A stretch of DNA of 29,313 nt from a virus: positions 1 through 29,313 of IMG/VR virus record IMGVR_UViG_3300025759_006851, one strand, 5' to 3'. The notes beneath the pieces are model-generated. The model did not search any database. It was not told the origin of the DNA and saw only the letters and a program-made list of their open reading frames with translations. Positions 215 through 10,011 of this stretch are shown one piece after another (within the stretch, counting starts at the first letter, position 1; the number at the start of each line of letters is the position of its first letter). Made by a program: the position numbers and the translations under genes.

Positions 215-231
215 AATGCCTTTAGACTTCC
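215..231 (+). repeat. 17-bp direct repeat, copy 1 (second copy 2414-2430)
   Basis: AATGCCTTTAGACTTCC occurs here, covering the DUF932 start codon and first codons (Met-Pro-Leu-Asp-Phe), and again exactly at 2414-2430 at the start of the 81-residue ORF. The sequences diverge after the 17 bases and the proteins are otherwise unrelated. This looks like a trace of recombination or duplication at the edges of the accessory block. Confidence 0.7.
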
Positions 232-1082
232 CGTTAGATGGGGTTGACCCCCGAATCTTTGGCGAGTTGCCAGAGAATATCAACTTCAAGGTATCCCACG
301 AACCTACTCGTATGGCAGGAAAAAAGTACGTGGTTAATCAATCCAACGGTGAGGTGTTGGGTATTGTTGGAAAGGGCTACCCTATCAACCCGCACCCTAA
401 CTTTTTCCGCCGTGTTCAGGCAGCTATTACTGACACGTTATCTTGGAATGATCTGGACGACGCTAAGGTACGGTGGCAAACCTCTCGGTTTGGTGCGTTT
501 GCACTAATGGATGTCACGTTTCCTAATGTGAAATACACGGTCACAACTGACCGCCATCAAACAGAGGTGTCTCAACGTGTCATTGCATTACATGGTCTTG
601 ATGGCCTGTGTTCTAATCAGATATTCTATGGTGCCATTGATAAGTTCTGTACAAACGGGATGCTATCGGGGGATCACACTCGTATCAGGCGGAAGAACAC
701 TACCAACTGGGACTTGGACACGTTCATTGATGAGCTTAACGAAGCTAAGGTAGAGTTCAATGCACATGGTCGCCTGCTTCAGACATGGGCTGACAAACAG
801 TTGGTAGTGCAGCGGGTGCAAGATGCTCTCAAGGCTATCGTCAAGTCAGATCGTAAGGCAGAGAAGCTGACTACTCTGTACCTCAATGAGGCCACGACAC
901 GTGGACATAATGTGTTCAGTCTTTACAGCGCACTAACTAACTTTGCTACTTATGCAGACGAACGTAACGGGTTCAAGCTACGTGAGACTGCTGCTGACAC
1001 GGCGGCAGTTACAATGTTCAAGCGTGAACAACAGGTTAATGATTGGGTAAGCCACCCTGCATTTAAAGCGCTTGCAGCATGA
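216..1082 (+). CDS. DUF932-family phage/plasmid-like protein
   Basis: The 288-residue product resembles the DUF932 family (phage/plasmid-like proteins, TIGR03299 type). The clearest mark is the segment CSNQIFYGAIDKFCTNGM near residues 131-148, whose C-T-N-G-M core is typical of the family. An N-terminal region with a GKGYPINPH-type stretch comes before it, and a charged helical C-terminal third follows. The biochemical role of DUF932 proteins is unknown; they are common in phage and plasmid early or accessory regions. The start is supported by AAAGGAAC upstream. The gene ends in an ATGA overlap with the phosphate-transporter-like gene, so the two are probably translated together. Its first 16 bases recur exactly at the start of the ORF at 2415. 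Confidence 0.8.
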   Translation: MPLDFPLDGVDPRIFGELPENINFKVSHEPTRMAGKKYVVNQSNGEVLGIVGKGYPINPHPNFFRRVQAAITDTLSWNDLDDAKVRWQTSRFGAFALMDVTFPNVKYTVTTDRHQTEVSQRVIALHGLDGLCSNQIFYGAIDKFCTNGMLSGDHTRIRRKNTTNWDLDTFIDELNEAKVEFNAHGRLLQTWADKQLVVQRVQDALKAIVKSDRKAEKLTTLYLNEATTRGHNVFSLYSALTNFATYADERNGFKLRETAADTAAVTMFKREQQVNDWVSHPAFKALAA

Positions 1083-1528
1083 TACCTAAAATAGAATTAG
1101 GTAATCCTATCGCCACTACACTTGTTGGGCTGGTTGTTTTCTATATCGGGCTGAAGATGTTTTCCGGTGGGATGAAGTCGATGGGTAACATGGATCACCT
1201 ATCGTACTTTATTCACAATCCTTACTGGATGTTTCTAGGTGGTATAGTTATGACCTTGCTGTGGCAGTCATCGTCTCTGTCCACTACTGCAATCATTGCT
1301 CTGGTAGCTTCGGGAGCAGTGCCTTTACCTGCTGCCATTGCATGTGTATTAGGTGCAAACATAGGTACGACTGGTACTATATGGTTGGCAGGTTTGTTTG
1401 TGTCAGACGGTATGCCTAAAGGTGATACACTCAGAATTGCGATGGCTCATACAGGTGTAAACCTTATGATGGCGCTGAGCCTATTACCTTTTGTCCACCA
1501 CATCGCTAGATTCTTAAGTAGATTCTAA
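1079..1528 (+). CDS. half-size Na+/phosphate cotransporter-like membrane protein
   Basis: This 149-residue hydrophobic protein has the hallmarks of one repeat of the Na/Pi cotransporter family (PF02690; NptA/SLC34-like). These are a QSSS motif at residues 63-66, a GANIGTTGT segment at 92-100, and an A-x-x-H-x-x-x-N-like segment (MAHTGVN) at 122-128. About four membrane-spanning stretches can be drawn (about 8-28, 48-66, 70-95 and 120-145). Full transporters carry two such repeats in inverted topology and are at least twice as long; this one has a single repeat and no sign of frameshift decay. It might work as a dimer, modify a host transporter, or do something else. The start codon overlaps the DUF932 stop (ATGA). 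The family call is fairly firm; phosphate transport is an inference. Confidence 0.75.
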   Translation: MIPKIELGNPIATTLVGLVVFYIGLKMFSGGMKSMGNMDHLSYFIHNPYWMFLGGIVMTLLWQSSSLSTTAIIALVASGAVPLPAAIACVLGANIGTTGTIWLAGLFVSDGMPKGDTLRIAMAHTGVNLMMALSLLPFVHHIARFLSRF

Positions 1529-1543
1529 ACAAAGGAATGCAAT

Positions 1544-1927
1544 ATGCTGACAACAGCATTTATGTGCGCTGCTATTGCAGTGTATTACGAGGCTCGCAAT
1601 CAACCACCTGAAGGGCAGCGGCAAGTTGTCCATGTTATAGCCAACAGGGTATACCATTCAGGTTTCCCCGATAACATCTGTGACGTAGTGAAGCAGCGAC
1701 ACCAGTTCAGCTTTTACTGGGACGGTAAGCCTGAACGACCTCGTGATAAAGTTGCGTGGGAGGCAGCTAAGACAGCAGTCGAAGAGGCTTACGAAGAACC
1801 TTATGAAAACTTAGGTGCGACACATTATCATGCGACATATGTGCAGCCTTATTGGTCTTTGTCTCCTAACTTTGTTAGGTTGGCCCAGATAGGAGACCAC
1901 ATCTTTTACGTAGAGGGAACTAGATGA
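1544..1927 (+). CDS. cell wall hydrolase, SleB-like
   Basis: The 127-residue protein matches the SleB/CwlJ-type cell wall hydrolase domain (Hydrolase_2, PF07486). It has the opening AIAVYYEARNQPPEGQ with the presumed catalytic glutamate at residue 16, then VIANRVYHSGFPDNICDVV, RHQFSFYWDG, an ATHYHATYVQPYW segment, and a closing GDHIFY strand. Members cleave the glycan backbone of peptidoglycan. No signal peptide is convincing; the hydrophobic start belongs to the fold. AAAGGAATGC provides the ribosome site and the end overlaps the next gene by 4 bases. A second, unrelated murein hydrolase (GH108) lies at 6034. Which of them is the endolysin, and which is virion-borne or accessory, cannot be told from sequence. 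Confidence 0.82.
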   Translation: MLTTAFMCAAIAVYYEARNQPPEGQRQVVHVIANRVYHSGFPDNICDVVKQRHQFSFYWDGKPERPRDKVAWEAAKTAVEEAYEEPYENLGATHYHATYVQPYWSLSPNFVRLAQIGDHIFYVEGTR

Positions 1928-3755: not shown

Positions 3756-4519
3756 GGATAAAAGATTTTGTTATTGCGCTTGGGCTAAAACCTGATACAA
3801 CTAAGCGCATGAACTGCCCTAAATGTAATGGGCGTGGTACGTTTACCGCCAGCAACTTACAGGGTGAGCTTGTATGGAACTGCTACAAGGCAGGGTGCGG
3901 CATAAAGGGACGCGACACTACGTCGCTACCAGCTACACATATCAAGCGGCGTCTCAACCCTGTTACCCCTAAGTCTATGGGGCCAGAGCCTTTTGATAGA
4001 CCTGATTACATAGTCAACCAGCAACCAGATACACTGCAAGATTGGTGCGACAAATGGGACATTGACATCAAGGATGTTTTGTACGATGTTAGGCAACACA
4101 GAGCAGTGTTTCCGATCACTTACAAAGGTCTTATGGTGGATGCAGCAGGGCGCGCGATTAGCCAGCATAGGAAACCAAAGTGGTTGCGTTACGCTAGCTC
4201 TGGTGTACCGTACACATACGGCAATGGTATGGTAGGTGTATTGGTAGAGGACTGCATCAGTGCTTATACTGTAGGGCGAGGCAATGTTATAGGTATCTCT
4301 GTCTTAGGCACCTCATTGTCAGAGGATCACATACGTTATCTACCAGTGCTAGATCGTATTGTTATCTGCCTTGACCCCGATGCTCTACCTAAGACGCTCA
4401 AGATAGCGAGCCAACTACGTACTATAGTGCCTGATGTAAAGGTTCTACGTACCACAGATGATCTGAAATACAAACACCCTTCCGACCTTGCGGCATTGGA
4501 GAATATGCTATGGAACTAG
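3752..4519 (+). CDS. DNA primase (zinc finger plus TOPRIM)
   Basis: The 255-residue protein matches a phage primase of the T7 gp4 N-terminal type. A zinc ribbon comes first: Cys22-x2-Cys25 and Cys44-x4-Cys49. A linker and a TOPRIM-like domain follow, with Glu166 in VLVEDCISAY and the Asp208-x-Asp210 pair in VICLDPDA. These residues bind the metal ions used for RNA primer synthesis. In T7 primase and helicase are fused; here the helicase is a separate gene starting inside the last ten bases of this one, which points to coupled translation and joint action at the fork. Confidence 0.88.
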   Translation: MRIKDFVIALGLKPDTTKRMNCPKCNGRGTFTASNLQGELVWNCYKAGCGIKGRDTTSLPATHIKRRLNPVTPKSMGPEPFDRPDYIVNQQPDTLQDWCDKWDIDIKDVLYDVRQHRAVFPITYKGLMVDAAGRAISQHRKPKWLRYASSGVPYTYGNGMVGVLVEDCISAYTVGRGNVIGISVLGTSLSEDHIRYLPVLDRIVICLDPDALPKTLKIASQLRTIVPDVKVLRTTDDLKYKHPSDLAALENMLWN

Positions 4520-5736
4520 CCCTGTTACGATCTCTTATGAACAAAGAGTTCTACTCTTCTACACGTGGGGCTAAGTGTCCTGACTCCCTCTTTACGTCTG
4601 ACGGAAAGAAAATCAAATCTGCTATTGACAAAGCTATATCTTCTTATGATAGAAGCGTAACACCTGATGAGATACAGGCGATCTTCCTTGCTGACAATCC
4701 TTCTCTCAGTACATCACAGAAGACAGCATATGAGAGTATGTTTCTACAGATTAAAAAGCAATCAGAGTTAGGTGTAGATGTAGCACGTGATGTGTTCAGT
4801 AAACTATTCCAACAGGTGTTGGGAGAAGAAATTGCTAACTTAGGGTTTGATTACGTAAATGGTACACAGAATAGTCTCGAACCTCTTCGTAGGCTATTGG
4901 ACAACCACCAAGACAACTTTCTACCACAGACTGACATCGAGTGGGAGAACATGTCACTTGATTATATCTTAGAAAAGAACTCTCAAGAAGCACGTTGGGT
5001 ATTCAACGTCCCATCTCTTACTCGTAAGGTTTCAGGCATCAGTGGTGGTCATCTTATTGAGGTAGGCGCTCGTCCCAACACAGGTAAGACAAGCTTCCAC
5101 GCCTCTCTTGTGGCCGGTACGGACGGCTTTGCTGAGCAGGGTGCTAAGTGTGTGGTACTTTGTAACGAAGAGAGCGCACACCGTGTTACGGCTAGGTATC
5201 TTAGTGCCACTATGAATATGCACATAGATGAGATCGCTGAGAACAAGACACAAGCGCTGGCTAAGTGGAGAGAAAAAGAGAAGAACATCTTTATCAAAGA
5301 CACAACAGGCAAGGACATGGCGTGGGTTGAGTCCCTTTGTAAGGCTGTTGATCCTGATATCCTTGTGCTTGACATGGGAGATAAGTTCGCTTCTATGAAG
5401 GGCAACCCTGCTCGTCCTGACTTAGTACTTGGTGCCAATGCTGTGTACGCAAGACAGATAGCTAAGTACTATGACTGTGCCGTTATGTATATGTCGCAGC
5501 TATCTGCTGAAGCAGAAGGCCGTGTCGTTCTCAACCAAGCTATGATGGAAGGCAGCAAGACAGGCAAGGCAGCGGAGGCTGATCTGATGTTTCTCATTGC
5601 TAAAAACCCTACTGTTGAAGGGCAGGAGGAAGATGATACACAACGTCACATCAACGTCGTAAAAAATAAGTTGACTGGGTGGCACGGTATAGTACACTGT
5701 GATCTAGATTGGCGAAGCGGTAGATACACCGCGTAA
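4510..5736 (+). CDS. replicative DNA helicase (DnaB/gp4-like)
   Basis: The 408-residue protein is a ring-type replicative helicase. An N-terminal helical part (MELALLRSLM... to about residue 130) resembles the DnaB amino-terminal domain. The RecA-like core follows, with Walker A GARPNTGKTS at 186-195, a glutamate-containing CNEES segment near 218-222, and Walker B ILVLDMGD at 284-291. A YMSQLS segment followed by the GSKTGKAAEADLMFLI region corresponds to the DNA-binding and arginine-finger motifs. It should unwind DNA using nucleotide hydrolysis and work with the primase encoded just upstream. The ATG lies in the primase gene's 3' end. Confidence 0.9.
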   Translation: MELALLRSLMNKEFYSSTRGAKCPDSLFTSDGKKIKSAIDKAISSYDRSVTPDEIQAIFLADNPSLSTSQKTAYESMFLQIKKQSELGVDVARDVFSKLFQQVLGEEIANLGFDYVNGTQNSLEPLRRLLDNHQDNFLPQTDIEWENMSLDYILEKNSQEARWVFNVPSLTRKVSGISGGHLIEVGARPNTGKTSFHASLVAGTDGFAEQGAKCVVLCNEESAHRVTARYLSATMNMHIDEIAENKTQALAKWREKEKNIFIKDTTGKDMAWVESLCKAVDPDILVLDMGDKFASMKGNPARPDLVLGANAVYARQIAKYYDCAVMYMSQLSAEAEGRVVLNQAMMEGSKTGKAAEADLMFLIAKNPTVEGQEEDDTQRHINVVKNKLTGWHGIVHCDLDWRSGRYTA

Positions 5737-5765
5737 AACTACAACACAAACACAAGGAGAACTAC

Positions 5766-6041
5766 ATGCCTTTTACTAAAGAAGAAGCTGCCAAACAGCG
5801 AGGTCGCCCTACTCAACCCAAACTTATTACACAACATGAAACTGATGTGCTTCGTGTTCGAGTTGCGTTGCGCGGTGTCGAAGCAGAGAAAAACTCTGGG
5901 CCTCCCTTTATTGTTGTAGACAATGTAGTTGGTATTGTTTATACGGCAGACGGTGTACAAATTCAGAACAGTGCTGGTCATTTTACCCACCTAACATGGG
6001 CCAGTGTTGTGTTTATGGCGTCGGAGAAAATGGATGTATAA
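5766..6041 (+). CDS. hypothetical protein (91 aa)
   Basis: A 91-residue protein preceded by a good ribosome site (ACAAGGAGA). The N-terminal 30 residues are basic and probably extended (MPFTKEEAAKQRGRPTQPK), followed by a beta-rich half with PPFIVVDNVVGIVY. No family is recognised. Its stop codon lies inside the start of the GH108 lysozyme gene (overlap 6034-6041), and it follows the helicase after a 29-base gap, so it belongs to the same transcription unit. Confidence 0.6.
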   Translation: MPFTKEEAAKQRGRPTQPKLITQHETDVLRVRVALRGVEAEKNSGPPFIVVDNVVGIVYTADGVQIQNSAGHFTHLTWASVVFMASEKMDV

Positions 6042-6594
6042 TTTTAAAAAAGCTTTTGGATTAACCGTAGGCCACGAAGGTGGGTATGGAAATGATAAAC
6101 GGGATCGAGGTAACTGGACAACAGGTGTCATTGGAGAGGGAGAACTAAAGGGTACAAAGTATGGCGTTAGCGCTATGTCCTACCCCGATTATGATATTGA
6201 GAACCTTACACTTGAACAGGCTGAGAAAATTTACACCCGTGACTATTGGGATAAGCTGAGTGCTAATCAACTACCGGACGGTGTAGATGTTTTCCTCTTT
6301 GATTATGCAGTTAACTCTGGTGTTGCGCGTTCAGCCATATCCCTTCAACGCATGGTTGGCGCAGCGGATGATGGACACATTGGGCCTCAAACACTTAAAC
6401 TAGTAGAGAAACGGTATTCTAGTGCAGACAAAAGTAAAACACTACAACTTCTCAATCAGTTGTATGTAAACAGAGAACATTTTTACAAAAAGCTTACCAC
6501 CTTTGATATCTATGGTAAGGGTTGGTTACGACGTAACGATGAGATTTTTAAGGCTGCTTCTACTCTGTTGCAGTACGGGGTCATGCGTCCTTAA
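6034..6594 (+). CDS. GH108-type lysozyme (endolysin candidate)
   Basis: The 186-residue protein has the signature of glycoside hydrolase family 108 (ZliS-like secretion lysozymes). VGHEGGYGND carries the presumed catalytic Glu15, then GNWTTG, a KGTKYGVSAM stretch, LTLEQAEKIYTRDYWD, FDYAVNSG and a DGHIGPQTL peptidoglycan-binding-like turn. These enzymes cut the glycan chain of murein, so this is the most likely endolysin. The frame is open up to 6004, but ATG 6034 is preferred: it overlaps the previous stop and follows a GGAG box, and the extra upstream residues (MLCLWRRRK) do not fit the family. No signal peptide is seen, so export would need a holin such as the one proposed at 24231-24392. 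Confidence 0.87.
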   Translation: MYNFKKAFGLTVGHEGGYGNDKRDRGNWTTGVIGEGELKGTKYGVSAMSYPDYDIENLTLEQAEKIYTRDYWDKLSANQLPDGVDVFLFDYAVNSGVARSAISLQRMVGAADDGHIGPQTLKLVEKRYSSADKSKTLQLLNQLYVNREHFYKKLTTFDIYGKGWLRRNDEIFKAASTLLQYGVMRP

Positions 6595-7974: not shown

Positions 7975-10011
7975 ATGCAGGTAGTTCTTGACGTAGAGAA
8001 TACCGTAACTGAACGAGACGGCAAGAAACACTTTGACCCTTTTGAACCCACCAACACACTCGTTATGGTGGGTGTTCTTTTAGGGGACAATGATTCTAAA
8101 GTCTTTACTATTAACCACACAGAGAAAGGACCAGATGATGTTTCTGAACTACAATCTATTTTGGGAAATTGTACGTGTCTTGTTGGACATAATCTAGTCC
8201 ATGATCTTGTGTGGTTGTGGGAGTGCGGGTTCGAGTACGACGGTCCTATCTACGATACAATGGTGGCTGAGTATGTAATGCTACAGGGTGTCAAAGATGC
8301 AGTGTCTCTAGACGCTTGTTCTGAACGCCATAATCTTACAGTCAAGAAGCAAGACACACTGAAGAAGTATCTAGCTGACGGAGTTTCTGTTGACGAAGTA
8401 CCTCATGCTGAGTTGTCTGACTACCTGATCGACGATCTACGTGCTACGTATCATCTTAAAAAGGTTCAGACCGCCGCTCTTGATAGTGCAGAGTACTCCG
8501 CTCTGCAACCTACCATTGACCTGAGCAACAAGGTTACTGCATGTCTTGCCCGTATGAATCAACGGGGCTTTGCTGTTGATCGTGAGGCTCTTGCAGCAGT
8601 TCGTCTAGAGTACGAGACAGAGCAGGCTACCCTACGACAAGAGCTACAAGAGCAGGCTCAAGAGCTTATGGGTGACTATCCCATCAACCTCAACAGCCCT
8701 GCCCAACTGTCAAGCCTAGTCTACTCACGTGTCCCAAAAGATAAAAAACTTTGGGCGGACGAGTATGGTGAACGTATGTCTGCACAAGACTATCGCCGTA
8801 CTGTGTCGCGTTTATCCGATGTTGTATACAAAAAGAAGGCTATTCAGTGCAGTACATGTAGAGGCTCTGGGAAAATATACAAGACTAAAAAGAACGGAGA
8901 GAGGTGGGCCAAGCCTACAAAGTGTCCTGCTTGTGTGGGTGAAGGTTATCTTTATGAGAACAGGGGTGAGATTGCAGGGCTTAAGTTCATGCCACCTCGC
9001 TCCTCTTGGGTTACAGCAGACGGGTTCAGTACTGGAAAGGATGAGCTTACAGTCCTGTCAGCTACCGCTGCCTCTCTTAACGATAGCAAAGCTAAATCAT
9101 TCTTAGATAAAATGATGCGCTTGAATGCTATCAGCAGCTACCTATCTGCCTTTGTCAATGGTATCGACACATTCACTAAGCCGGATGGTAAGCTACACGT
9201 ACAGCTTACTCAAATCATTACTGCTACTGGACGCTTCTCTGGTCGTAACCCGAACATGCAGAACATGCCACGAGGCAACACCTTCCCCATCAAGAAAAGC
9301 TTTGTATCACGATGGGGCAATGGCCTTGTACTTGAGGCTGACTTTGCCCAATTAGAGTTTCGTGTTGCTGCATTTTTGTCCCAAGACAAGACAGCCATGA
9401 AAGAAATCCTTGAGGGTACTGACGTACATGCTTACACCGCTAAGGTTATTACAGAGGCTGGGCAACCTACCTCTCGACAGGAAGCTAAGGCTCACACCTT
9501 TGCCCCGTTGTTTGGTGCTACAGGCTATGGGCGTACACAGGCAGAGGCAGCTTACTACCATCACTTTATTACTAAATATGCTGGTATTGCTGCGTGGCAC
9601 CAGAGCCTCGCTAAGTCTGCACTCAACAAGGGCTTCATCAGTACGCCATCTGGTAGGCAGTTTGCTTTCCCCAACATCACAAGGAGACGTAACGGAAACC
9701 CCACTGAGTTTACCCGTATCAAAAACTATCCTGTCCAGTCGTTTGCTACGGCTGACATCGTACCCTTCACGTTACTGTACATCGAACACCTACTGAAAGG
9801 AAAGCAGTCATGTATTGTTAACAGTGTTCACGACTCTCTTGTTATTGACGTACACCCTGACGAGCTAGAGCAGGTTAAGTACGTTATCAAACGGGCTAAC
9901 AACAGTTTAGTCACACTTATCAATAAGCAATGGGACATTGACTTCAACGTACCGTTGCTACTCGAATGTAAAATCGGACCTAATTGGCTGGAAGTTAAAG
10001 ATGTCGCTTGA
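7975..10011 (+). CDS. DNA polymerase A with embedded DnaJ-like zinc motif
   Basis: The 678-residue family-A polymerase has an N-terminal 3'-5' exonuclease with Exo I Asp6/Glu8 (VLDVENT), Exo II Asn73/Asp77 (GHNLVHDL) and Exo III Tyr150/Asp154. Between exonuclease and polymerase lies a four-cysteine motif, Cys292-x2-Cys295-RGSG and Cys317-x2-Cys320-VGEG, like half of the DnaJ central domain; this insert is the hallmark of HMO-2011-type phages. Polymerase motifs are ATGRFSGRNPNMQNMP, motif A Asp456 (DFAQLEFR), motif B Arg501-x3-Lys505-x3-Phe509-x3-Phe513 and motif C His619-Asp620-Ser621. Phe509 matches E. coli Phe762; Phe513 stands where Tyr766 usually is, and Ser621 replaces the usual Glu. It is the replicative polymerase. 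AGGA precedes the start. Confidence 0.95.
   Translation: MQVVLDVENTVTERDGKKHFDPFEPTNTLVMVGVLLGDNDSKVFTINHTEKGPDDVSELQSILGNCTCLVGHNLVHDLVWLWECGFEYDGPIYDTMVAEYVMLQGVKDAVSLDACSERHNLTVKKQDTLKKYLADGVSVDEVPHAELSDYLIDDLRATYHLKKVQTAALDSAEYSALQPTIDLSNKVTACLARMNQRGFAVDREALAAVRLEYETEQATLRQELQEQAQELMGDYPINLNSPAQLSSLVYSRVPKDKKLWADEYGERMSAQDYRRTVSRLSDVVYKKKAIQCSTCRGSGKIYKTKKNGERWAKPTKCPACVGEGYLYENRGEIAGLKFMPPRSSWVTADGFSTGKDELTVLSATAASLNDSKAKSFLDKMMRLNAISSYLSAFVNGIDTFTKPDGKLHVQLTQIITATGRFSGRNPNMQNMPRGNTFPIKKSFVSRWGNGLVLEADFAQLEFRVAAFLSQDKTAMKEILEGTDVHAYTAKVITEAGQPTSRQEAKAHTFAPLFGATGYGRTQAEAAYYHHFITKYAGIAAWHQSLAKSALNKGFISTPSGRQFAFPNITRRRNGNPTEFTRIKNYPVQSFATADIVPFTLLYIEHLLKGKQSCIVNSVHDSLVIDVHPDELEQVKYVIKRANNSLVTLINKQWDIDFNVPLLLECKIGPNWLEVKDVA
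8046..8081 (+). terminator. terminator-like hairpin inside the polymerase gene
   Basis: ACCCACCA (8046-8053) pairs perfectly with TGGTGGGT (8066-8073) across a 12-base loop, and the stem is followed by GTTCTTTT. This resembles an intrinsic terminator or attenuator about 70 bases into the polymerase reading frame. It may instead be a coding coincidence around Pro-Thr-Asn and Val-Gly-Val codons. Ribosomes translating the region would normally melt it. Confidence 0.3.

Follow-up and report, generated by a model that had tools for sequence, protein, structure and literature searches.

What a phage does with half a transporter is the question raised by a small gene in the window, a stretch of 29,313 nucleotides from a virus (IMG/VR record IMGVR_UViG_3300025759_006851, positions 1 to 29,313). 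The gene (1079..1528, plus strand) encodes a Na/Pi cotransporter-like protein of 149 amino acids plus stop, in which a search of Pfam-A detected one stretch matching PF02690 (E 1e-16, 61.6 bits, profile positions 2-109 of 137), above the curated cut-off of 29.1 bits. The initial annotation had recognized QSSS, GANIGTT and MAHxGVN elements of one PF02690 repeat and proposed a half-size Na/Pi cotransporter. All three elements are located in the 149-aa product (QSSS at residues 63-66, GANIGTTGT at 92-100, MAHTGVN at 122-128), and the profile search suggested there returned the match given above. By its score and its QSSS and GANIGTT-type motifs the protein is a member of the PF02690 family; with one repeat and one match per record, it departs from NptA and SLC34 transporters, which have two inverted repeats in one chain. 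No second PF02690 match was detected in the whole 29,313-base virus record. The open frame begins just four codons 5' of the ATG (153 aa open), which leaves no room for a concealed N-terminal half in that frame. The earlier proposal holds with respect to phage origin, single repeat and family, and transport itself is treated below as a probable function.

The gene lies between a DUF932 gene (216..1082, plus strand; PF06067), whose nearest homologues are those of CRP-345, HMO-2011 and CRP-1, and a Hydrolase_2 gene for an endolysin-like cell-wall hydrolase (1544..1927, plus strand; PF07486 at 86.6 bits; PHROG endolysin). The end of the upstream DUF932 frame and the start of the transporter gene share the sequence ATGA, and 16 bp separate the transporter gene from the downstream hydrolase gene. 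The window is an HMO-2011-type phage: its DNA polymerase (7975-10011) has a DnaJ central-domain insert and is closest, at 57%, to those of Roseobacter phage CRP-345 and phage HMO-2011. The DUF932 homologue of CRP-345 and of HMO-2011 is followed by the integrase, directly or via one 49-aa ORF, the transporter gene being absent there. DUF932 and integrase are separated in the window by the genes for the transporter, the hydrolase and a pyrimidine-dimer glycosylase-like protein. The latter two genes (1544-2415), here 3' of DUF932, lie 5' of it in CRP-345, indicating a local rearrangement. Judging from their relatives rather than from sample metadata, phages of this kind are probably marine.

Scans of IMG/VR with three queries detected at least 520, at least 556 and at least 597 stretches that encode relatives. 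The 205 loci examined, some of them from the same contig, yielded 142 distinct proteins including that of the window, all of which are single-repeat proteins of about 123-167 aa. No second copy was present in the flanks at any of the 205 loci. Exactly one PF02690 match, in open frames of 152-196 aa, was found in each of 45 virus records searched whole, among them records of 177, 135 and 110 kb. One match per record in these 45 records means that the phages encode no second half, and a phage-encoded partner subunit is unlikely because each record holds a single copy. No two-repeat version was found in half-carrying phages. In viral contigs generally, an alignment query detected only 14 two-repeat genes, mostly with open frames of 549-611 aa, and a single two-repeat protein used as query detected no viral relatives. 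The gene was not found among the cultured phages of INPHARED, where only weak partial matches with less than 60% identity appeared, and PLSDB contained no relatives.

Two scans of 84,980 cellular genomes revealed two relatives. One is an ordinary two-repeat protein. The other is a 71% match on a contig binned as a Chloroflexi MAG (L082), the other genes of which resemble T4-like phage; judged from these neighbours, the contig looks viral and was probably misbinned. Genes for an isocitrate lyase, an IMPDH/GMP reductase and an extracellular solute-binding protein lie near the half-transporter on this contig (L082:1-8450). In 151 genomes from the phylum to which L082 was assigned, all other PF02690 matches listed fall in frames of 355-721 aa. 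In 120 genomes from a second phylum (that of G002, Flavonifractor), four short frames occurred among the matches listed, none of them a genuine half: two (G223 and G269) were rejected as they lie at contig ends, and two (G227 and G268) as frame breaks within two-repeat genes. Among the matches listed, the sampled cellular genomes carry two-repeat genes only, with open frames of mostly 308-721 aa, and no genuine single-repeat PF02690 gene.

A short gene related to longer ones might be a functionless remnant of a two-repeat gene. Nothing except its length speaks for this very improbable reading. The half-transporter gene is intact at every locus examined, the median pairwise dN/dS is 0.086, and 45 positions are invariant across the 142 sequences at pairwise identities down to 60%. 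The invariant positions include S64-S66, G92, A93, N94, G96-T100, H124 and N128. Q63 occurs in 141 of 142 sequences, and I95 is replaced by V or L in some. Conservation of this extent together with the low dN/dS excludes decay, and a decaying fragment was rejected on these grounds and on the absence of a longer phage version. The initial annotation had named a full-length version in relatives as the sign of a decaying fragment; the phage relatives are without one and are under strongly purifying selection.

How the phage halves relate to the two repeats of longer transporters was addressed by sequence comparison. A search of PDB sequences matched both repeats of SLC34A2 (9z60), one stretch scoring 40.9 bits and the other 37.4 bits, and a profile of the phage proteins scored about equally on both repeats of cellular two-repeat proteins. 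On average the phage half shares 25% identity with first repeats and 27% with second repeats; the repeats themselves share 26%. In a tree of 139 columns the phage halves form one clade (support 96/98) and the second repeats lie on one side of a branch (support 78/82); a tree in which the first repeats were constrained together fits better than the tree of the free search. The best tree, which is unrooted and built from few columns with long branches, thus suggests three separate clades of first repeats, second repeats and phage halves, placing the halves within neither repeat. Inverted repeats of secondary transporters are thought to derive from fused small dual-topology ancestors, and natural stand-alone halves are, to our knowledge, known for few transporter families. 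Because of the three clades and the equal distance of the half from each repeat, the phage protein might descend from a single-repeat Na/Pi (SLC34/NptA) ancestor that preceded duplication and fusion, and might still work as an antiparallel homodimer; we put this forward as a tentative possibility.

The known members of the family share the motifs and differ in architecture. Bacterial NptA/YjbB-type Na/Pi cotransporters have a QSSS-type hairpin and a GxNIGT helix in each repeat, but they consist of two fused PF02690 repeats, often with PhoU, whereas the phage gene comprises one repeat without PhoU. The phage half aligns with both repeats of animal SLC34 (NaPi-II) proteins such as SLC34A2 (9z60), including QSSS, NIGT and the H-x-x-x-N helix. 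SLC34 proteins, however, are single chains of two inverted repeats plus extra helices, an arrangement that the phage protein would have to replace by dimerisation.

AlphaFold2, given phage sequences only, produced a weak model (pLDDT 68.5). Addition of 23 repeat segments from two-repeat genes raised the pLDDT to 88.4 (pTM 0.79), a value that leans on these added homologues. The resulting model contains helices at residues 10-34, 40-45, 48-62, 65-77, 83-108 and 116-146, which would form three membrane spans and a re-entrant hairpin tipped by QSSS (all coordinates on the plus strand). The first predicted membrane helix comprises residues 10-34 (1106..1180). It is followed by the predicted re-entrant hairpin of residues 48-77 (1220..1309), made of helices 48-62 and 65-77 and placed like HP1/HP2 of NaPi-II models (PMC6325988), with QSSS at residues 63-66 (1265..1276). 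The second membrane helix, residues 83-108 (1325..1402), bears GANIGTTGT at 92-100 (1352..1378), and the third, residues 116-146 (1424..1516), aligns with the H-x-x-F-N helix of the second repeat and contains AHTGVN at 123-128 (1445..1462). Published NaPi-II models show inverted repeats with QSSS in re-entrant hairpins and binding sites at the repeat interface (PMC6325988), and the predicted phage fold agrees with their repeat unit. In the human NaPi-IIa model Q417/S418/S419 and T451/T454 are placed at the Na3 site (PMC6325988); by alignment, the conserved phage motif residues are their putative equivalents. Foldseek searches against PDB and BFVD gave no significant structural match; the SLC34 entry may post-date the library.

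Since a lone half would offer only half of the binding site, we infer assembly as a homodimer. Dual topology, substrate, direction of transport and benefit to the phage are inferences too. The reading that we favour, with reasonable though limited confidence, is that the gene encodes one full inverted-repeat unit of a PF02690/SLC34-type Na+/phosphate symporter, stand-alone in phages. Two copies would insert into the membrane in opposite orientations and form an antiparallel homodimer, to which each would contribute its re-entrant hairpin, tipped by QSSS, and the broken helix that carries GANIGTTGT. Such a dimer would re-create the central Na+/phosphate site that is built from a single chain in fused two-repeat transporters. 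In an infected cell, the sodium gradient would drive the import of phosphate (or of a comparable oxyanion) to supply phage DNA synthesis without recourse to the host's PstS route.

The three predicted spans bring the N- and C-termini to opposite sides, as an inverted repeat requires. The Lys+Arg bias between the sides is -2 in the window protein (range of the family -4 to +5, median +3), a small bias that is compatible with dual topology but no proof of it. In most relatives the N-terminus is extended by a lysine-rich segment with a mean of 5.4 Lys+Arg. The window protein lacks this segment, which may favour an N-in orientation and so weaken the case for dual topology. EmrE (SMR) and Fluc/CrcB come from unrelated families, and neither is known to be a re-entrant-hairpin Na/Pi-type unit. 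We propose them as a working analogy for an antiparallel phage homodimer: they are small dual-topology proteins that show little charge bias and associate upside down (PMC3755343, PMC9574504).

Two variations on this theme have to be weighed. A homo-oligomeric transporter or channel of the same fold could serve a non-phosphate substrate, such as another oxyanion or a sodium leak. A different specificity could be marked by W62, L67, T70, G99, I101 and other residues that are phage-invariant and missing from two-repeat proteins; QSSS, the NIGT core and T100, on the other hand, are common to two-repeat Na/Pi transporters, and we regard a non-phosphate substrate as unlikely. Alternatively, the half might join or block a two-repeat Na/Pi transporter of the host, or modulate phosphate sensing, without transporting by itself. 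Its single copy and half size would fit such a role, and the surface formed by its conserved motifs could associate with one repeat of the host protein. Both halves are, however, already present in two-repeat proteins, the substrate-site motifs are fully kept although an inhibitor would not need them, and a Caulobacter control genome contained no PF02690 match. Action on a host protein is thus distinctly unlikely.

The position next to an endolysin gene, on which the initial annotation did not remark, brings in a further alternative: a transporter repeat may have given rise to a holin or pinholin, which would make the inner membrane permeable for the endolysin encoded alongside. In the window, the small multi-span protein is encoded immediately 5' of the Hydrolase_2 gene. 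Three contigs (L023, L034 and L040) show the order T4-type lysozyme, half-transporter, Rz-like spanin and second Rz-like spanin, where the transporter occupies the place usually taken by a holin; in L040 these genes follow one another consecutively at 4519-6226. Spanin genes also lie 3' of the half-transporter in L064, L100, L106 and L122, and a GH108 gene precedes it in L052 and L053. Yet lysis genes adjoin the half-transporter in only about 5 of the 46 contexts into which its neighbours group, window included, and the search for them was seeded with genes adjacent to the half-transporter, which biases any enrichment. Elsewhere the neighbours are T4-type DNA polymerase, capsid gp23, gp59, deformylase, class II tRNA-synthetase-like and other genes. 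The transporter protein matched no holin family: it had no PHROG match of any kind at E 0.01, and PF02690 was its sole Pfam match. A holin would not need the invariant substrate-site motifs, and a role in lysis leaves both their conservation and the other contexts unexplained. We consider this role improbable, but it is a real rival and the main one to the symporter.

Other features of the neighbourhoods were recorded. A class II tRNA-synthetase-like family (for example L147:2027-2992) occurs no more than two genes from the half-transporter in 29 places. A 683-aa protein with CHASE2 and adenylate/guanylate cyclase domains is encoded immediately upstream in L008 (2849-4897), and related ends are present in L007, L009 and L011. 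A cyanophage origin was rejected because psbA was absent from 30 such virus records searched. PstS was likewise absent from 30 such records, and no phosphate-stress gene was seen adjoining the half-transporter among the neighbour contexts.

The presence of PF02690 in HMO-2011-type phages is already known: in the accessible text of PMC9038755 the domain is annotated in eight HMO-2011-type genomes (subgroup I) and read as phosphate uptake, which corresponds to the window in annotation and phage group. That text says nothing of the protein's half size, of its occurrence in T4-like phages as well, or of how it relates to each repeat of the longer transporters. In the literature searched, which comprised work other than subscription papers and preprints, no earlier mention of a single repeat was found, and the half-size architecture, the phage-only range and the position in the tree appear to be new. 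If the proposed function is correct, these phages possess a Na+/phosphate transporter of a simpler, perhaps more ancient kind, and a route of phosphate acquisition other than pstS. The transporter fold is of medical importance, and a conserved half of it that is confined to phages would allow a direct test of the idea that such transporters originated by fusion.
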